From: a virus
Direction: 5' to 3' (one strand)
Virus record (IMG/VR): IMGVR_UViG_3300036861_000355
Coordinates: 1 to 39,877 of that record
Length of the DNA: 39,877 nt
The translations under genes and the position numbers were made by a program. The number at the start of each line of letters is the position of its first letter. Position 1 is the stretch's first letter. The notes under the pieces were generated by a model, which was not told the origin of the DNA, did not search any database, and saw nothing but the letters and a program-made list of their open reading frames with translations. This document shows, piece after piece, positions 7,488 to 27,098 of this stretch.

Positions 7488-8812
7488 TACTTCTCTTCTT
7501 CCTCTCGTTCAACTGCCATAATATAGTCAAGAACTCTTTCACTCCACCCGTCAATGTGAGTCCACCCGTTCCCGTAGCTTATCCCATGCTGGTAAGGTGC
7601 TACATTCACTACATACCCATGTTGCCAGCCACAGGCTGGAATACTCTGATGCGACTGTTCGTCTGTTATGACTATGATTCTATCCGCTGTTGCCCATATC
7701 TTGAGCGCCTCAACTAGTGCTTTAGCGGTGTAGGTTCCTGCATGATGTTGAGAATTATAAATTAGGTCCCTAAGCGCAAATCCCCTTCTAGGTGCTACTT
7801 CTACAAACTTCTCAGAGAACGTCCCCACATAAGGGGAATCCGACTTCTCTCTGAGTAGAATAGCTAACGCTGAGGCAGCAGATAGTCTAGTCATGTCTGA
7901 CTTACTTGAGATATTACCATCCATACTCCCCGAAACATCTATCAAGATGGCTGTCTTTCCTGGAAATACACCCAGGTCTTCAGCCGCCTTAAACATAGCC
8001 TTTTCAATGGCAGGCTCAAGCCTAGAGGCATACTTTGCTGCCGCAATAAATCTGAAGGGCAACGCTCTCCTAGCTCCCTTCTCTAGTCTTTCAGTGATTA
8101 GCTTTTCATCTACCCCTACTGAAAGCATGTTCCTCAAATTTCTGAGTACTGCCAACCCCCCAAGTTTACCTTCTCTAAGTAGGCGCTCCCAGGTTTCTTT
8201 CTTGTCTTTTCCCGCTGAGAGTGCTACTTCCCAAGTGTCAGGAGACTCTAGGGTATTATCTACTAACTTCTTCCAAGTATCAGCTTGTTCCTTGTCTTTT
8301 GGAGTAGCATGTACTAGAAATAGTACATCCCTTAACTTCACCTTAGCTTTAGACTGATCGTACTTCGCTAAGTCGTATGCATCGAACTTCTGAAACGCCT
8401 TAGCTAATCCCCTCTTTACCCCTGCTGAGAGCGGATGCTTCCCTTCTTTCCAGTAGATAGCCATGAACTCCGAAAGTTCATCCGCCCTTTGGATTACTCT
8501 TACTAAAGCCTCCCTTACTACGGCTCCAGCTCCTTTCACTTTTGACAGCTCACAAAGTAAGAAGAGTGGCGCGTGTCTGAGCTGCATTCCCTCTCTAGCT
8601 TCTATCGCTAGTGCTGCTACTTTCTCAGGACTCACCTTAGGCACTAGGGAAGCAATTCTACTCGCAATACTACTCCCCTTCTCGTAGAAAGTGTCCTCCC
8701 AAAGAAGACAAGTCAGGAGTGTTCGCTTTAGCTCCGCGTAGGGACTTACTTTCTGAGCTTTAGCCCCTTCGTGTGTGAGAACGGGGTCTTCTGACTTGTT
8801 TGTCTTGGACAT
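7487..8812 (-). CDS. rsr: Ro60/Rsr-like RNA-binding protein (TROVE + vWA)
   Basis: 441 aa from ATG 8812, which has GGAGAG at good spacing; a TTG twelve codons upstream would lie inside the neighbouring RNA. Residues ~20-285 are a helical TROVE ring with family signatures KFDAYDLAKYD and LPFRFIAAAKY. Residues ~290-441 are a vWA domain with the MIDAS set: DVSGSM, a Thr in GTYTAKAL and the Asp of IVITDEQSH. Ro proteins bind Y RNAs on the ring surface and misfolded or fragmentary RNA in the hole; bacterial Rsr works with nucleases such as PNPase. It is shorter than typical bacterial Rsr (just over 500 aa). Two tandem structured RNAs lie directly upstream, as expected for Y RNA genes. Phage Ro homologues are known from mycobacteriophages. 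Confidence 0.93.
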   Translation of the reverse strand: MSKTNKSEDPVLTHEGAKAQKVSPYAELKRTLLTCLLWEDTFYEKGSSIASRIASLVPKVSPEKVAALAIEAREGMQLRHAPLFLLCELSKVKGAGAVVREALVRVIQRADELSEFMAIYWKEGKHPLSAGVKRGLAKAFQKFDAYDLAKYDQSKAKVKLRDVLFLVHATPKDKEQADTWKKLVDNTLESPDTWEVALSAGKDKKETWERLLREGKLGGLAVLRNLRNMLSVGVDEKLITERLEKGARRALPFRFIAAAKYASRLEPAIEKAMFKAAEDLGVFPGKTAILIDVSGSMDGNISSKSDMTRLSAASALAILLREKSDSPYVGTFSEKFVEVAPRRGFALRDLIYNSQHHAGTYTAKALVEALKIWATADRIIVITDEQSHQSIPACGWQHGYVVNVAPYQHGISYGNGWTHIDGWSERVLDYIMAVEREEEEK

Positions 8813-8911: not shown

Positions 8912-9010
8912 AGCTGGCGGGAACAAGCGACAAGGGTAACAAGTGCGCTGCCTTTCGGCCCGCTTCCTCTTTTCATAGAAGAAGTAACCCTAGTCTGCAC
9001 CGCGCCAGCT
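8912..9010 (-). ncRNA. Y-RNA-like small RNA, copy 2 (~99 nt)
   Basis: Closed by AGCTGGCG/CGCCAGCT (8 bp). Same internal loop as copy 1 (5' CGGUGCA, 3' GCUUGUUCC). Upper helix GAC-U-AGGGTTA / TAACCCT-U-GTC. Unlike copy 1 it carries two further hairpins: CTTCTTC/GAGGAAG, and GCC-GAAA-GGC inside GCG/CGC (GNRA loop). A two-hairpin head is compatible with the tRNA-like effector module described for YrlA RNAs, but no TTCGAAT-type T-loop is visible. It lies between the stop at 9020 and copy 1, co-oriented with the Ro-like gene. Confidence 0.68.
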
Positions 9011-9019
9011 TTTTCTACA

Positions 9020-9169
9020 CTACTTCCATAGCTTAAACTCTATCCTTCTCCCACAAGTAAAGCAAGTCCTGTGAGGACCACTTTCACCTGAGAGGGTAGT
9101 GGGCCTTCCCTTGTTGGGGTGCAAGCACTTCCCTACTAGAAAGTAGAGAAATGCCAGAATTAATTCCAC
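9020..9169 (-). CDS. membrane-anchored CxxC protein, 49 aa
   Basis: GTG start at 9169 preceded by GGAGTAGAG, overlapping closely with the upstream gene. Reads (M)ELILAFLYFLVGKCLHP, a short hydrophobic helix, then CFTCGRRIEFKLWK. Its stop is 10 nt before the first Y-like RNA. Unknown function. Confidence 0.52.
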   Translation of the reverse strand: MELILAFLYFLVGKCLHPNKGRPTTLSGESGPHRTCFTCGRRIEFKLWK

Positions 9170-12007: not shown

Positions 12008-12190
12008 TTACTCCCAGTACGTTCCCCCAAGCGCTCCCTTTACCTTGGTAAGCCCACAGTCCCGTAGGGCTTGCTCCCGTTCTTTCTTGGAAACCCTAGT
12101 CTCCTTAGGAGCCCCACACTGACAAGCCAGACAGAGGTTCTCTCCGTCCCTTGTGGCTATCTCAGCGCCACACCTGCTACAGACCTTCAC
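12008..12190 (-). CDS. zinc-ribbon protein, 60 aa
   Basis: A GTG start overlaps the upstream TGA (GTGA). CSRCGAEI near the start and CLACQCG at residues ~20-26 form a classic two-pair ribbon, followed by a charged helix (KKEREQALRDCG). Possibly a transcription- or translation-associated ribbon; unproven. Confidence 0.62.
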   Translation of the reverse strand: MKVCSRCGAEIATRDGENLCLACQCGAPKETRVSKKEREQALRDCGLTKVKGALGGTYWE

Positions 12191-12783
12191 AGTGTATGCT
12201 CCTCTCCAAACTTCTCTTGTGTCATACTCCCAGGTACAGACAACCCGTCTAGGAGAGTTCTTACTCTCCTATCTTCCAAGGCAGAAAACCAAGCCTGCAC
12301 AGGTAGCCTCTTAGCTGGCTTGTATGGGACGATAGGTTCAAACGGCTTTGCTCTAGCTAGGGTTTTCCTCACTCTAGCCTTTGCTCCGGGCCGTAGCTTA
12401 GGCGCGACTGGTTCCCGTGTCTCTCCGTGTACAAACTGGAGTAGCCTACGGTTTCTAGGCAGTTCTACCACGTCTGATTCTTCTTCCTCTCGCACCTTGG
12501 GTTGTTTCTTGCGAAGTCTAAACCGGCTTTCCACGCTCTTGTTTATCGCCAGTTCCTTGTCCCTGTCCGATTCCGCTACCAAGGCAGCAATCAGACCCGA
12601 CAGACCCGCCGCAGTCCTAACAGGCGGTTCCTCTGGCGGCGTTGGTACAGGTGTCAGGGAAGAATGCGGAGGGAGAGGAATCAAAGGGGTTTGCTCCGTC
12701 CACTTGTGTTGCCTAGCACGCCGTATTCTCTGACCTGCTGGCACAGGCTTGGACGGAAACACCCGAATAGGTTGACGTTGCAT
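12187..12783 (-). CDS. Pro/Arg-rich hypothetical protein, 198 aa
   Basis: Low-complexity, basic protein with a Pro-rich segment (PLIPLPPHSS, PTPPEEPP), a helical middle and Arg/Lys clusters. Probably largely disordered. It is the first gene after the terminator at 12803-12835; its ATG lies only about 20 nt past the U-tract with a GAGGGG RBS, so its mRNA probably comes from read-through. A plus-strand frame of 220 codons overlaps it but breaks the strand pattern. Confidence 0.55.
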   Translation of the reverse strand: MQRQPIRVFPSKPVPAGQRIRRARQHKWTEQTPLIPLPPHSSLTPVPTPPEEPPVRTAAGLSGLIAALVAESDRDKELAINKSVESRFRLRKKQPKVREEEESDVVELPRNRRLLQFVHGETREPVAPKLRPGAKARVRKTLARAKPFEPIVPYKPAKRLPVQAWFSALEDRRVRTLLDGLSVPGSMTQEKFGEEHTL

Positions 12784-12802: not shown

Positions 12803-12835
12803 AAAAAAGTGGGCAAGAGGAAGGTCCTCTTGCCC
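12803..12835 (-). terminator. rho-independent terminator after 12863-13165
   Basis: On the minus strand an 11-bp perfect stem GGGCAAGAGGA / TCCTCTTGCCC with a 3-nt loop is followed by ACTTTTTTG. It sits between the stop at 12863 and the next start at 12783, so it separates the first leftward gene from the long operon and may be partial. Confidence 0.85.
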
Positions 12836-12862
12836 TGGAGACTGCTGCTGGCCGACCGCCGT

Positions 12863-13165
12863 CTATCGGCGCGTGATAACTAGGCTGAAGTACGCGGGAC
12901 GGCCTTTCCCAATGTGGTACGTGACAGGCGCGGTTTTGCCCTCTTCCGTGTACGTGCCCGGAAATTCCATTCCCGCGACGTTGAAACCCCGGTTCCCTGC
13001 CGCAGTAATGGAATGATGCTGAAGAATGTCGTCCACTTTCAGCAACATAGCAACGTGTCCTGGGGGTACTGGCTTTCCTTCCGGTAGCACCTTGCAAGGC
13101 ACTGGTATTCCCGGTAGTTCATCGGAAATGAGGGGCTTGGGGGGCTTGCGTTCTTTCTCTGCCAT
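12863..13165 (-). CDS. first leftward gene: hypothetical protein, 100 aa
   Basis: ATG 13165 with GGAGAAAGGAAA upstream. The N-terminus is Lys/Pro-rich (MAEKERKPPKPL), then a compact beta-rich domain (HVAMLLKVDDIL, GNRGFNVAGMEFPG) ends FSLVITRR. No family recognised. It has its own perfect sigma-54 promoter, a hairpin-bearing leader and its own terminator, so it is probably expressed as a separate, abundant transcript. Codon use is rather GC-rich compared with the virion genes. Confidence 0.65.
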   Translation of the reverse strand: MAEKERKPPKPLISDELPGIPVPCKVLPEGKPVPPGHVAMLLKVDDILQHHSITAAGNRGFNVAGMEFPGTYTEEGKTAPVTYHIGKGRPAYFSLVITRR

Positions 13166-13169
13166 AGGT

Positions 13170-13242
13170 AGTTTCCTTTCTCCCAGTAAAGACTGGGGTA
13201 ATGTTTGTACTGTGTACGTGGCGGACTTGCGCCGCCCGTGCG
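13170..13242 (-). promoter_or_regulatory. structured 5' leader of 12863-13165
   Basis: Between the predicted sigma-54 start (about 13242) and the RBS are two hairpins on the minus strand: GGCGG/CCGCC (13220-13236) and CCCAGT-CTTT-ACTGGG (13182-13197). The RBS lies just after the second stem, outside it. They could stabilise the mRNA or tune translation. Confidence 0.5.
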
Positions 13243-13252
13243 AGGGAACCAG

Positions 13253-13268
13253 TGCAAGGCCCGTGCCA
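13253..13268 (-). promoter_or_regulatory. sigma-54 (RpoN) promoter
   Basis: Minus-strand TGGCACGGGCCTTGCA matches the sigma-54 consensus TGGCACGrnnnTTGCw at every defined position, with correct -24/-12 spacing. The predicted start is near 13242, giving a ~77-nt leader to the ATG at 13165. Sigma-54 promoters need an ATP-dependent enhancer-binding protein; tandem iterons lie upstream at 13320-13372. Confidence 0.8.
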
Positions 13269-13281
13269 AACCTGTAACTTG

Positions 13282-13491
13282 CTGAAAACAAAGGGAATGG
13301 TTCAAAATGTGCCATCGGAAAAGTGGTAGTTTGGTACCATAAAGTGGAACCACCGTTCAAAAAGTGGAACCAGAGTACCACTATGGCCCGGAAGTCGTTG
13401 ATTCGACTGAACTTAGGCCGCTCCGGCTCCGAATTCGACCCGAAACCCCGGCAAAAACTACTTTGCGACGCCAAGTTACTGAAAACAAAGG
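13282..13491. repeat. 13-bp direct repeat pair flanking the control region
   Basis: CTGAAAACAAAGG occurs at 13282-13294 and 13479-13491, 197 bp apart. The flanks are also similar (AACTTG and AAGTTA just upstream). The copies bracket the iterons. They may be regulator sites or a recombination scar. Confidence 0.5.
13320..13372. repeat. three AAAGTGG iterons, candidate activator sites
   Basis: AAAGTGG begins at 13320, 13341 and 13361, spacing 21 and 20 bp (two helical turns). The last two copies extend to AAAGTGGAACCA. Relative to the predicted sigma-54 start they lie at about -78, -99 and -119, the usual zone for enhancer-binding proteins. Confidence 0.65.
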
Positions 13492-13549
13492 AGCTTCCCC
13501 CCAGGGGGGCGGCCTCCGATTCTCTTCATAGGTCCCCCCACTCGAAATT

Positions 13550-13699
13550 GAAATTTAGAAATTTCTCTAAAGCATTGATTCTAAAGAGTCTTCAGCACCG
13601 AAAGCTCTAAAAAGTCGGACTACTAGGAGATAGAGTATATACTCTAGTAGTGTATAGGCAGAATAACTGTAACGATTTTTGTAGTATTAGAATCTAATA
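13550..13699 (+). promoter_or_regulatory. palindrome cluster before the rightward genes
   Basis: Three inverted repeats lie within 150 bp upstream of the terminase genes: GAAATTT-AG-AAATTTC (13550-13565), a perfect 16-bp TAGAGTATATACTCTA (13631-13646), and TATTAGA-A-TCTAATA (13685-13699). The last two share TAGA...TCTA half-sites. The area is AT-rich and probably holds the rightward promoter, but I see no convincing -35/-10 pair. The rest of 13166-13705 holds no credible gene. Confidence 0.5.
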
Positions 13700-13705
13700 T
13701 AGGTG

Positions 13706-14158
13706 ATGAGAGTATACGAGAGAACTAGGCTTCATAGAATAGCCGCTAAGATGGTGCGGCAGAAGGTGAGTCTTAGGCAGGCAGTTGTAGATTTGAACCT
13801 AGACCCCGTTACTCCTGAGGAGGCAATTAGACTTGAGGAGTCCCCCGCTTTTCAGGAATGCTTCACTAAGGAGCTTTATAGGTTTTTTAAGGAGTTAGGG
13901 GAGGACGTAGATAGGAATAAGGGAGCACTAGTTGGGGAGATGCTTTACTGTGTAAGGAAGCTGACTGAAGAGGGCTCCTACGACAAGGCTTTAGAGGGAT
14001 TGTTTAAGATTGCTAGGGTAGAGGGGCATGTGGGTGGAGAGTCGAATGTCAATGTGTTTGCTAATGTTACCGCCAAGGACATAGAGGAGGCTCGAAAAGA
14101 GCTTAGTAAGAATGGGAAATCCACTTCTAAGGGAATTGTCCAAGATACCATCCAGTAA
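13706..14158 (+). CDS. terminase small subunit-like protein
   Basis: About 150 aa, first rightward gene, overlapping terL by 47 nt. An N-terminal helical, basic part (RLHRIAAKMVRQKVSLRQAV) resembles a helix-turn-helix DNA-binding head; the centre is helical and the C-terminus is a charged tail. Assignment rests mainly on position, size and fold type. A GTG one codon earlier is an alternative start. Confidence 0.7.
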   Translation: MRVYERTRLHRIAAKMVRQKVSLRQAVVDLNLDPVTPEEAIRLEESPAFQECFTKELYRFFKELGEDVDRNKGALVGEMLYCVRKLTEEGSYDKALEGLFKIARVEGHVGGESNVNVFANVTAKDIEEARKELSKNGKSTSKGIVQDTIQ

Positions 14159-15623
14159 GGATGCCCTGGCAGTACTGGAGGCTTTTGAGAAGAAGCGCCG
14201 GGAGGACTACTTTGTTAAGTACTGGGGTCCTACGGAGCATCAGAAGCAGGTATTTAGTGAATTTACCTCTGAAGTTAAGACGTTTGTGGTAAGAGGGGGC
14301 AATAGGAGTGGGAAAACTGAGCTTGGGGCCGCTATGACTATGGCCTGGGCCTTAGGGAAGGAGTATTTTAAGGGAGAATCAGCCTGGGAGTGGGTAAAAG
14401 ACCTCCCCATACCAACTCCACCGAATAATATCTGGATAGTAGGGTTGGACTTCCCTATGGTAAGGGATGTCCTGTGGGGGGAGAAGCTTAGAAGGGGTAG
14501 AAATCACCCCCCGATGCTCCCCAAGGACCCAGAGGTAGTAGTTAAGGTGTCGGATTCGGAGTATCAGGTAGTTTTCTTCAACGGGAGTATGATTACTTGT
14601 AAGTCGGCGGATTCTGGAAGGGAAAAGTTCCAGGGAGCTTCAGTAGACTTTATTTGGATAGACGAGGAGCCGGATGTAGATATTTACAATGAATGCTACC
14701 AGAGGACTGTAGACTGTGCCGGGAAATTGCTAGTTACCCTTACTCCCCTTACGGATATGTCTTCTGGAGTAAAGGTTCCTTGGGTTTATGAGCTTTCGGA
14801 GGGAGTTAAGAGTGGGGCGATTAAGAATGTTAAGTTTTTTAGTCTTTCGGTAATGGACAATCCCTTTGTGCCGGAGGAGGAGAAGGTAGAGCTTCAGACG
14901 AAGTGGGCCAACCATCCTGAGGAGAGGGCAAGACTTTACGGGGAGTTTATTCAGAGGAGTGGGCTAGTTTATCCGATGTGGAATTCCAAGGTTCATATAG
15001 TCAATAGCTTTAGGAGTCCCAGGAGTTGGTTTAGGGTGGCGTGTATTGACCCTGCTCCAGTAGGTACTACAGCGGCCCTGGGAGTAGTAATTGAACCTGG
15101 GAGTAACGACTACTACTTTGAAAGGGAGTATTACAAAGCAGATCAAACAGTCTCGGACCATGCTAAGGATATTCTAATGGCCTTTAGGGGGGAGCCTGTG
15201 GATGTTTGGTTGATAGACCCTAAAGCGGGGGCTCAGAAGCAAGCGGAGAGTCACAAGACTATACAGCAGCTTTATAGGGACAACGGAATTCCAGTTAGAC
15301 TCGCAGAACTAGACGAAGACTATGGAAGAAGTGCTATGGGGGAGTATCTCTCGGCGAGTTTGTCTGCGAATTCTAGAGGACCCAAGGCTTTTGTGATGCA
15401 GCATCTAGCTAACTTTAGAGAAGAAATAGCTAGGTATGTTTGGGCATTTTATGGTAAGGGAGAACTAAAGGGATTGAGTAAGGAGAAACCAGTGAAAAGG
15501 CGGGACCACCTAATGAATTGCGCGCAATACTTATGCGCTATGAAGTTTAAGTCTAGGATTAGGGCTTCTGTCTTAAGTCAACAGGAAGTAGCCCAAACTG
15601 CTAGGTTTAATAGTTATACTTAA
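14112..15623 (+). CDS. terL: terminase large subunit
   Basis: 503 aa. Walker A is VRGGNRSGKTE (residue ~62-72); Walker B is VDFIWIDEEPD (residue ~180); the coupling motif region follows at LVTLTPL. The C-terminal RNase H-like nuclease carries VACIDPAP (~315) and WLIDPKAG (~370) as acidic sites. It packages DNA into the prohead, powered by ATP, and cuts the concatemer. Full-length for the family. The start overlaps the upstream gene; a later start is possible but would shorten the N-terminal adaptor part. Confidence 0.95.
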   Translation: MGNPLLRELSKIPSSKDALAVLEAFEKKRREDYFVKYWGPTEHQKQVFSEFTSEVKTFVVRGGNRSGKTELGAAMTMAWALGKEYFKGESAWEWVKDLPIPTPPNNIWIVGLDFPMVRDVLWGEKLRRGRNHPPMLPKDPEVVVKVSDSEYQVVFFNGSMITCKSADSGREKFQGASVDFIWIDEEPDVDIYNECYQRTVDCAGKLLVTLTPLTDMSSGVKVPWVYELSEGVKSGAIKNVKFFSLSVMDNPFVPEEEKVELQTKWANHPEERARLYGEFIQRSGLVYPMWNSKVHIVNSFRSPRSWFRVACIDPAPVGTTAALGVVIEPGSNDYYFEREYYKADQTVSDHAKDILMAFRGEPVDVWLIDPKAGAQKQAESHKTIQQLYRDNGIPVRLAELDEDYGRSAMGEYLSASLSANSRGPKAFVMQHLANFREEIARYVWAFYGKGELKGLSKEKPVKRRDHLMNCAQYLCAMKFKSRIRASVLSQQEVAQTARFNSYT

Positions 15624-24904: not shown

Positions 24905-25238
24905 ATGTTTAGAAGTTTAGTTAAAGTTGTATTTAGTGTCCTCGGCTTCGGCGCGGATGTAATTACTGTGACTAGTGGTACTGCTGGTAATGCTGGAAGT
25001 ACTGCGGCAGAGTTAATTACCTTCATGTCAGCTACTATGCTGGATGTTGCCGAGTTGAACACAATTTTGAACCAGTTCGGAGACAAGCAGCCTCTTCCTG
25101 AGAATTCTAGTTTAACCATTAGGTTTACTAGACAGGAGAAGTTTACTGTCCCCACTACCCCCACTCAGCTTGTTCAGGGTGTTGCGCCTGATGCTTCTGG
25201 GTTGACAATCAACCAAGTTGAAGCTACGGCGGAGCAGT
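24905..25238 (+). CDS. major capsid protein, exon 1 (codons 1-111 plus 1 nt)
   Basis: N-terminal third of an N4-gp56-like capsid protein; ends ...INQVEATAEQ and one T. The unspliced frame would run 23 codons into the intron and stop at 25306. Splicing to 25801 and then 26529 gives a continuous 338-aa protein: exon lengths 334 + 113 + 570 keep the frame. The join reads TAEQ|FYDGFLVRISDL, matching the family pattern where TAEQ-F is followed by ISDLAELT. RBS GGAAAGGA upstream. Confidence 0.88.
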
Positions 25239-25800
25239 TAGTTAAATGTTACCATGCTGCTCAAAAATCGTTTCTAAATATCATGGAAAGCTACGGGTTA
25301 AATTAACCTATGCTAATCAGAGGGAAGATAGAGAGAGAAGATCTAGTATATGCTGCGTGTGCCTTTGAGTGTGAGGGTTCTATAACATTCTCTAGAAGTA
25401 TTACTTCTAAGGGATGGTATCAGATAACGCCCTTCGTCTCGATTGCCAATGTAGATGATAGGTTAGTTAATTGGCTCCAAAGTAAATTTGGAGGCCATAT
25501 TCTAACAGAGCAACCTAAGAAACTTTCAAAACGAGTTATTTATCGTTGGAAGGTTTATTCTGGTTATTGTGTAGATTTTCTTAATCTCGTTCTACCTTAT
25601 CTAAAGTTTAAACAGGATCGTGTAAAGCTAGTAATTGACTTTTGGGCGAATAGAAGTACACTTTCACGTACACAAAAGGATAACTACTGGCTTCGGTTGA
25701 AGGCTTTAAATAAGGGAGAGTCACCCGCAGAGACTAAACGAAACGATGCAGAAACCAATCTGCAAAGCGATAGTCCGACTCTGGTGGAAACGCCAGTCAG
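25239..25800 (+). ncRNA. group I intron 1 in the capsid gene (562 nt)
   Basis: P1: exon GAGCAGU (ending 25238) pairs fully with the guide GCUGCUC at 25256-25262, with the diagnostic U-G at the cut site. Core strands of P7 lie at AGAGACTAA (25729-25737) and GATAGTCC (25769-25776). P9 is CTGGTG-GAAA-CGCCAG just before the end. The intron ends in G (25800). It carries the endonuclease at 25310, whose frame runs through the core and stops at 25807 inside exon 2. Confidence 0.85.
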
Positions 25801-25807
25801 TTTATGA
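25310..25807 (+). CDS. LAGLIDADG homing endonuclease (intron 1)
   Basis: 165 aa with a single motif, YAACAFECEGSI (residues ~14-25), the degenerate LAGLIDADG helix with its acidic residue; single-motif enzymes work as homodimers. Beta-strand region VSIANVDDRLVNWLQSKFGG follows, as usual. The last ~35 residues are read from the intron's catalytic core. Cuts intronless capsid genes to spread the intron. No clear RBS; a GGTTAAATTAACC palindrome precedes the ATG. Confidence 0.85.
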   Translation: MLIRGKIEREDLVYAACAFECEGSITFSRSITSKGWYQITPFVSIANVDDRLVNWLQSKFGGHILTEQPKKLSKRVIYRWKVYSGYCVDFLNLVLPYLKFKQDRVKLVIDFWANRSTLSRTQKDNYWLRLKALNKGESPAETKRNDAETNLQSDSPTLVETPVSL

Positions 25808-25913
25808 TGGATTCTTGGTTAGAATCTCTGACCTCGCTGAACTAACCGCTCGACATAACGTTGTTGAGCGTACTATGTATATTCTTGGATTGCACGCGGC
25901 AGAGGTCTACGAT
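25801..25913 (+). CDS. major capsid protein, exon 2 (113 nt)
   Basis: Encodes FYDGFLVRISDLAELTARHN, then VVERTMYILGLHAAEVYD, the best-conserved part of N4-gp56-like capsid proteins. It is too short to be found as a gene and has no start codon of its own. Flanked by two group I introns; the exon ends CTACGAT, which forms P1 of intron 2. Confidence 0.86.
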
Positions 25914-26528
25914 TTGAACTAACTGGTCGTAGTAAAATCTGACTATATCGGTGGATCTCTCTTTAAGGAGACAATACCGAGGAAAGACCGAAATAATGAA
26001 AGATAATTGGCCGTATTTGGCCGGAATCCTTGATGGAGAAGGTTGCTTGCATATCGCTAAGTTTACTGCAAAGAACCAATGGGGAAAGCAATACCCCGAA
26101 ACCTTGCGTCTAGACATTCACATTACAACCACTTGTTTTAAGTTGACTAAGTGGTTGAATGTTAACTTTGGTGGAACTTATTACCACATTCCAATGGATA
26201 AGTATAGTCCAAAATGGAAAGATGCATGGCGTTGGCAGCCAAGTGGCAAGAAGAACAAAGAACGACTACTTCTTGGCACTCTTCCATATTTAATTATCAA
26301 GAGAGAATTGGCAGAAATATGTTTACAGTTCCTAAAGGCTCATACTGAAAAACGAACTGTAGATTGTTTAGAACTTTGCCAGAAAGCACGGGAGTTATCC
26401 CGTCGCGGTCGCTCCGTAGAGACTAATACGTCAGACTCAACATTACTTGTTGAGAAGATAGAGTCCGAACTCATTAGTGATAATGAGAGTGCATCAGCAG
26501 TGATGCTGAATGCCTAAACACTATACAG
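25914..26528 (+). ncRNA. group I intron 2 in the capsid gene (615 nt)
   Basis: P1: exon CUACGAU (ending 25913) pairs with the guide GUCGUAG at 25926-25932, again with a U-G at the cut site. Core strands AGAGACTAA (26418-26426) and GATAGAGTCCGAACTC (from 26457) closely match intron 1, so the two are related. Ends in G at 26528 (ACAG|TTG). A cut three bases later would also keep the frame. Confidence 0.84.
25996..26517 (+). CDS. LAGLIDADG homing endonuclease (intron 2)
   Basis: 173 aa from ATG 25996 (AGGAAAG upstream); a longer frame begins at 25951. Motif LAGILDGEGCLHI at residues ~9-21 is a clear single LAGLIDADG helix with both acidic residues. LDIHITTTCFKLTKWLNVNF follows as the DNA-contacting beta region. 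The C-terminus is read from the intron core. Related to, but clearly diverged from, the intron 1 enzyme. Confidence 0.9.
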   Translation: MKDNWPYLAGILDGEGCLHIAKFTAKNQWGKQYPETLRLDIHITTTCFKLTKWLNVNFGGTYYHIPMDKYSPKWKDAWRWQPSGKKNKERLLLGTLPYLIIKRELAEICLQFLKAHTEKRTVDCLELCQKARELSRRGRSVETNTSDSTLLVEKIESELISDNESASAVMLNA

Positions 26529-27098
26529 TTGATTTTCAATGTAATTGACGCCGCAACTAATGTCTATAGACCTAATGGTAGGGCTACCGACATTACTCTG
26601 CTTGCGTCTGACTTGATTGGCTACAATGACCTAGTGGCGCTTGAGGCTCTTCACATGGATCAGGGCGCACGTCCAGTTCAGGACGGGCTCTTTGCCTTTG
26701 TGACCCCGCCTCAGGTGTATGCGGGTCTTCAGAAGGACCCTGACTGGAAGTCTAGTCATCAGTTTAGGGACCCCGAGAAGATCTGGCGAGGAGAAGTCGG
26801 AGACTTGGCAGGAGTTGCAGTAGTTAGAACTAATGCTCCTGGATTCTCTCCCACTGCTCAGTCTACTTCGGGTGTGACTAACAAGGTCTATAGTTCTTTC
26901 ATTATAGGCCGACAGGCTTATGCTATCACAGACCTTCAGGGCCTTAGGGTATATACTATCGCTCCTGGTGGTCATGGGGACGAACTCTATCAGAATCGCA
27001 AGATTAGTTATAAGTTTGCGTTCAAGAGCGTGATCTTGAATCAGAACTGGATTCGTAGAGTGAGATCTTCGGGTGCTAATTCTGTAAATACTCCGTAA
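26529..27098 (+). CDS. major capsid protein, exon 3
   Basis: 189 codons plus stop. Joins as ...AAEVYD|LIFNVIDAATNVYRPNGRA. Contains LHMDQGARPVQDGLFAFV and GEVGDLAGVAVVRTNAPGF, both typical positions in the N4-gp56 capsid family, and a C-terminal strand set. Alone it lacks a proper start (the frame opens on TTG without an RBS), which is a further sign that the gene must be spliced. Confidence 0.88.
   Translation: MIFNVIDAATNVYRPNGRATDITLLASDLIGYNDLVALEALHMDQGARPVQDGLFAFVTPPQVYAGLQKDPDWKSSHQFRDPEKIWRGEVGDLAGVAVVRTNAPGFSPTAQSTSGVTNKVYSSFIIGRQAYAITDLQGLRVYTIAPGGHGDELYQNRKISYKFAFKSVILNQNWIRRVRSSGANSVNTP

Follow-up and report, generated by a model that had tools for sequence, protein, structure and literature searches.

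A 19-bp conserved box and a sigma-54-type -24/-12 core together form a composite module that occurs in statistical excess and is conserved before different small first genes in several phages, including the virus record studied here. In this 39.9-kb record, the whole of which is referred to below as the window, a rightward arm contains the terminase, portal, and capsid genes and the leftward arm consists mainly of small genes. The promoter unit is situated where the two arms meet (the junction), on the minus strand. Judging from the arrangement of its sequence parts, we regard it as probable that this is a sigma-54 (RpoN)-dependent transcription unit that uses host machinery and answers to a host activator. 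A sigma-54-type transcription unit in a phage had been put forward in an earlier reading of the window (the original prediction), and it was borne out as a conserved module in other phages.

Parts of the unit in the window

The signature of a sigma-54 promoter is a GG and a GC exactly ten bases apart, together with TTGGC and TTGCA. The window core TTGGCACGGGCCTTGCA (13253..13269, minus strand), located 88 nt upstream of a 100-aa gene, has GG at -24, GC at -12, and ten bases between them. Within it, TGGCACGGGCCTTGCA (13268-13253, minus strand) is the sole mismatch-free match to TGGCACN5TTGCW in the window, in agreement with the perfect motif of the original prediction. The core scored 21.8 of a possible 22.1 on a sigma-54 matrix that approximates the published consensus and whose absolute scores are therefore approximate; the conservation argument is independent of this matrix. 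One Markov-shuffled window in 100 held a motif scoring 21.8, and 1.8 Mb of other phage DNA contained no word with a score of 19 or more. The predicted transcription start, set 12 nt after the C of the -12 element, is 13242.

An IHF site between the enhancer and a sigma-54 promoter is common but not required. Directly upstream of the -24 element, the window has a conserved 19-bp box, CCTTTGTTTTCAGCAAGTT (13276..13294, minus strand; -34 to -52), which had been missed previously. Its IHF-like core, TTTCAGCAAGTTA, has one mismatch to the IHF core consensus WATCARNNNNTTR (PMC7962754), and the box is located where IHF sits in known sigma-54 promoters, at about -42 (PMC3897727; see also PMC7962754). 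A second copy of the box, CCTTTGTTTTCAGTAACTT (13473..13491, minus strand), has no -24/-12 motif after it.

Further upstream, at -77 to -141, lies a repeat cluster (13319..13383) with three AAAGTGG direct repeats, three TGGWACCA sites, an GTGGTTCCAC dyad, and an 18-nt inverted repeat. The AAAGTGG repeats, on the plus strand at 13320, 13341, and 13361 (-78, -99, and -119 from the predicted start), are the three iterons noticed earlier at about -78 to -119, which proved to be part of this larger cluster. Enhancers of sigma-54 promoters are typically found 70-150 bp upstream (PMC3844500), and the window repeats, which fall in this range, are candidate activator (enhancer) sites by their position. 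They are not conserved in the relatives, where no such enhancer-like repeats were found, and a search of the viral contigs for the iteron pair AAAGTGGAACCA-N8-AAAGTGGAACCA returned none.

The 77-nt untranslated leader (13166..13242, minus strand) contains the expected two hairpins and a ribosome-binding site, GAAAGGA; its folding energy was -22.9 kcal/mol (z -2.2), and it matched no RNA family. The first gene (12863..13165, minus strand) is an ORF for a 100-aa protein, as described before, for which no homologues were found in the viral contigs, the related records, annotated phages, Pfam, or PHROGs and whose AlphaFold model was too poor for use (pLDDT 40). It is followed by the intrinsic terminator (12803..12838, minus strand) described before as textbook, with a G+C-rich 11-bp stem (12835-12811) and then a T run, ACTTTTTT, which suggests that the 100-aa protein is the main product. 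The second gene of the leftward arm (12187..12783, minus strand; 198 aa, with its own ribosome-binding site and no family match) starts approximately 20 nt past the T tract, so that it would be reachable by read-through alone unless a promoter lies inside the first gene. All of the parts described earlier were present; the term self-contained overstated the case with regard to this next gene.

Divergent from the promoter unit, a 151-aa gene in the small-terminase position (13703..14158, plus strand), a position shared by its homologues in the relatives, precedes the gene for the large terminase subunit (14112..15623, plus strand; PF03237). A simple scan of the minus strand of the junction did not find a sigma-70 promoter. 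Annotated phages yielded no meaningful close relative, at the nucleotide level, of either the junction or the promoter, and a terminase search of a genome collection, directed at the host by way of prophages, gave remote matches only. Two further elements were observed on this side of the junction: an operator-like near-palindrome, CTACTA..GAGTATATACTC..TAGTAG (13613-13655), before the terminase genes, and a G+C-rich element, AGCTTCCCCCC(N)GGGGGG (13492-13513), which is a possible candidate for a packaging (cos) site and is partly shared with contig L001 (approximately 9007-9028), where it likewise precedes the small terminase gene at the junction. In the same L001 contig (7800-8950, minus strand), a repeated leader, GCGCGCGAYRGCCCGG..GGTTCTGGT, precedes several small leftward-arm genes and apparently represents an intergenic repeat family of that contig.

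The composite module in other phages

Approximately 20 related phages were collected by their terminase and portal proteins and scanned for the box with no promoter motif imposed. Sites were found in L142, L143, L153, L136, L154, and others, and the matches in L142 (two), L143, and L153 led within a few nucleotides to TTGGC-N7-TTGC. Two composite scans of the viral collection, in which alone the GG/GC spacing was imposed, added L248, L255, L272, L280, L285, and L287, giving a box with a -24/-12 motif at ten further sites in nine other phage contigs (L142 and L245 are the same contig). The raw count of the collection scan, 39 stretches, was discounted as evidence because most of these fell into a few unrelated families of repeats; a site was counted only when it also shared bases that the search had left free, namely C-C/G before TTTG and A at -11. 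The GG, the TGC, and their spacing are invariant in all 11 composite sites, the A at -11, which no scan imposed, is found in 9 of the 11, and the distance from box to promoter varies by site (3-6 nt) while the GG/GC spacing is fixed.

The best five composite sites, including that of the window, scored 25-29, whereas the other matches listed from 0.6 Mb of relatives and 2.37 Mb of other phage DNA scored 22 or less, which separates the composite sites cleanly; the 2.37 Mb of other phage DNA held no comparable composite. With a leave-one-out matrix built from the other ten sites, the window site scored 44.3, the next-best site of the window, which is the second box, 21.0, and the best of 20 shuffles 15.3. 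Among 767 sampled bacterial genomes (379 + 388, from two phyla), there was no exact match to the composite pattern.

On the generic sigma-54 matrix, the sites of the window, L255, L280, and L272 scored 17-22, a level reached by fewer than 0.02% of GG-N10-GC words, and four other sites scored below 10 (4.2 to 8.8). The extended consensus TGGCAC-N5-TTGCW is perfect in the window and partial in several other sites (scores 4.2-21). Positions -22/-21, which in sigma-54 promoters are usually A and C, vary among the other sites. The box has a single mismatch to the IHF core in 10 of the 11 composite sites, always with T and not A at position 2 of that core, and its conservation extends over 19 bp, past the IHF core, which suggests that another protein may bind it. 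Copies of the box without a -24/-12 motif were found in L136 and L154 as well as at 13491 in the window. At L136 4720-4790 and L231 18730-18660 (G033), the box stands before another conserved stretch, AAAGTTKACATAATAGGGTATTATC, and the two together are possibly a second promoter type that uses the box.

When ten further records were searched for the window's terminase, it was present in L266 and L272 and absent from L248, L255, L280, and L251 (some of these records are fragments), which indicates that the module spans different phages. Most terminase relatives lack the composite, including ones whose records extend across the divergent junction. The comparison of relatives that the original prediction had called for was favorable for the promoter, with the composite at ten more sites, and unfavorable for the iterons, which were not conserved.

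Eight copies of the module, that of the window included, precede a small first gene of 60-118 aa with a ribosome-binding site: 100 aa in the window, 95 in L142, 113 in L248, 110 in L255, 60 in L280, 108 in L285, 92 in L287, and 118 in L153. The leaders are 48-82 nt long in the window, L142, L248, L255, and L280, approximately 67 nt in L153, and 125-169 nt in L285 and L287, and those of the window, L280, and L153 fold better than nearly all shuffles. A terminator directly after the small gene is present in three cases, namely the window, L153 (13-bp stem), and L280 (14-bp stem). No small gene stands immediately behind the second L142 site, the L272 site, or the weaker composite matches in L251 and L266, and the L143 element is directed towards the terminase and not a small gene.

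The proteins of the L142, L248, L272, L287, and L143 genes have KGxxSxxGLxRxPVxLY in common, and the rest are unrelated by sequence. Pfam and PHROGs gave no confident match for any of the small first-gene proteins, an alignment of those first-gene products that are not homologous revealed no convincing family, and a model of the commonest protein in this slot, that of the KGxxSxxGLxRxPVxLY family, was mediocre and matched nothing. A homologue of the L287 small gene was also found in the annotated uncultivated phage ctUh1700 (MW202637, Manatee Spring), near the beginning of the arm that runs away from the terminase, and a -24/-12 word, TCGGCACGACCCCTGCA, lies approximately 83 nt before the start of this KGxxSxxGLxRxPVxLY homologue. 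However, the conserved CCTTTGTTTTCA box is not evident in ctUh1700, and a second, oppositely directed -24/-12 word, TTGGCACGGTGTATGCA, stands beside TCGGCACGACCCCTGCA (L291 3759-3816, MW202637).

Upstream of the module in other phages, a different, dyad-like word, GTGTAAWWWTTTACA, chosen after the fact, was present with up to 4 mismatches at 5 of the 11 sites versus 4% of random stretches. Several other module sites also have dyads in the upstream interval.

Proposed mechanism and alternative readings

In the psp promoter of E. coli and the orp promoters of Desulfovibrio, activator sites, IHF at about -42, and the -24/-12 element follow one another in that order (PMC11720261, PMC3897727). Since the phage unit has candidate parts in the same order, we take it to be a promoter for host RpoN. 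It differs from psp and orp, which are host promoters, in being carried by the phage, in having no activator gene found with it, and in having a box conserved far beyond the IHF core. No PF00158 match was found in the window, nor any above the family cut-off in 20 related records (some of 65-70 kb), and the activator is therefore taken to be the host's. We infer that host RNA polymerase with RpoN would bind the -24/-12 element at 13269-13253, that a DNA-bending protein, most likely IHF, would occupy the conserved box at 13294-13276, and that a host enhancer-binding protein on the repeats at 13319-13383 would be looped onto the polymerase and open the promoter. The transcript would start near 13242, carry the structured leader, direct synthesis of the 100-aa protein in quantity, and mostly end at the terminator, with a minority of transcripts presumably continuing past it into the remainder of the leftward arm.

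Two other readings of the composite were weighed. A genuine promoter might be read by a factor other than RpoN, for example a sigma factor encoded by the phage or a box-binding activator of phage origin, and this would suit a box that is conserved over more bases than IHF needs, that also occurs without a -24/-12 motif and before AAAGTTKACATAATAGGGTATTATC, and that is coupled to a promoter with variable -22/-21 bases. We nevertheless consider it unlikely, given that GG-N10-GC with TTGGC and TTGCA is the sigma-54 signature, that four sites score 17-22, and that the variable distance between the box and the -24 element disfavors one protein touching both rigidly. A chance resemblance with no promoter at all is extremely improbable: an equally good -24/-12 motif did appear in 1 of 100 shuffled windows, and the finding is one selected from among many windows, but the composite is conserved in other phages before small first genes and stands far apart in the leave-one-out comparison (44.3 vs 15.3). 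The upstream repeats are a more delicate matter. That those at 13319-13383 are terminase-binding or replication-origin repeats, or a phage-repressor operator, placed by chance behind a sigma-54 promoter is a lesser but substantial possibility. Their place in the junction, a short way ahead of the small terminase gene, is the usual one for packaging sites, AAAGTGG is found before the small terminase gene on the same strand in L002 and L136 as well, and the G+C-rich element at 13492-13513 is partly common to the window and L001 at the same junction. The distance of -78 to -119 and the 20-21 bp spacing, on the other hand, are as expected for an activator that occupies a single face of the helix, and dyads were seen in the same upstream interval at several other module sites.

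For early phage genes, the usual assumption is transcription with the housekeeping sigma factor or by a polymerase of the phage. Like the sigma-70 early promoters and the phage-RNA-polymerase promoters of well-studied phages, the unit in the window would serve the first genes of a phage arm; unlike them, a promoter of the sigma-54 type needs an activator in order to fire, which would make the phage gene dependent on host signalling. If sigma-54 is needed, the promoter would be silent unless the host activator is on, and the phage would read the stress or nutrient state of its host. The psp (phage shock) promoter itself is switched on by filamentous phage infection. We suggest, tentatively, that these uncultivated tailed phages may use host sigma-54 signalling as the entry switch of the leftward arm, with exchangeable enhancers and exchangeable small first genes, and that each phage may couple its first small protein to a host enhancer-binding protein triggered by infection, such as a PspF-like activator responding to envelope stress. 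Neither a phage-borne sigma-54 promoter nor this conserved module was found described in the open-access papers searched; the promoter class is known, and what looks new is that phages would employ it, in conserved form, as a switch ahead of a small first gene. Being short and recognizable, the module can be searched for in any virome, and the first genes, which place several unrelated small proteins in one slot, are defined candidates for early host-takeover or counter-defence proteins.

RNA-repair genes and further observations on the window

The leftward arm also contains genes for Ro60-like, RlaP, and RNA ligase proteins, at 4-11 kb past the terminator. It had been proposed that an activator, perhaps one sensing RNA damage, turns on the promoter and that read-through then feeds these RNA-repair genes. 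In bacteria, operons of this kind are activated by RtcR, which acts with sigma-54 (PMC7790460), the phage resembles the RtcR / rsr-yrl-rtcBA operon in having a sigma-54-type promoter and, elsewhere, a Ro60-like (Rsr) gene, and G034 (approximately 70 kb) carries both the promoter and a Ro60 gene, the latter approximately 27 kb downstream. However, the 11-bp terminator and approximately 4 kb of other genes separate the unit from the nearest RNA-repair gene, the Ro60-like gene starting at 8812; the gene that the unit would drive is a small, unrelated one, and the promoter is not directly before rsr/rtcBA-type genes. No rtcR was found beside the promoter, and no RtcB- or RtcA-like Pfam match was found among the leftward ORFs scanned. 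The unit and the RNA-repair genes also do not go together in other phages: 15 Ro60 phage contigs (some fetched in part) lacked the composite promoter, and G024 (approximately 70 kb) has two promoter copies and no Ro60. The window's RNA ligase and RlaP had no match in G024 or G034, and by any family search the small proteins behind the promoter in other phages were not RNA-repair proteins. The proposed RNA-repair link thus did not hold up, and an RtcR-like activator switching on the Ro60 and RNA-ligase genes through this promoter is very unlikely.

Just upstream of the Ro60-like gene, two tandem structured RNAs were observed on the minus strand (9011-8912 and 8903-8829; z -4.1 and -4.5), which share GGUG...GGUUACUUC...UUGUUCC and have paired ends. 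They had no match in Rfam. Upstream of Ro60-like genes, L082 and L087 carry the same RNA words, and others carry part of them. The tandem RNAs look like phage Y RNAs.

In the rightward arm, the capsid gene (24905-27098, plus strand) is in two halves, 24905-25306 and 26529-27098, which adjoin in the relatives. Between them lie two homing-endonuclease-like ORFs, 25310-25807 and 25951-26517 (phrog_5046), which suggests introns or insertions that split the capsid gene.
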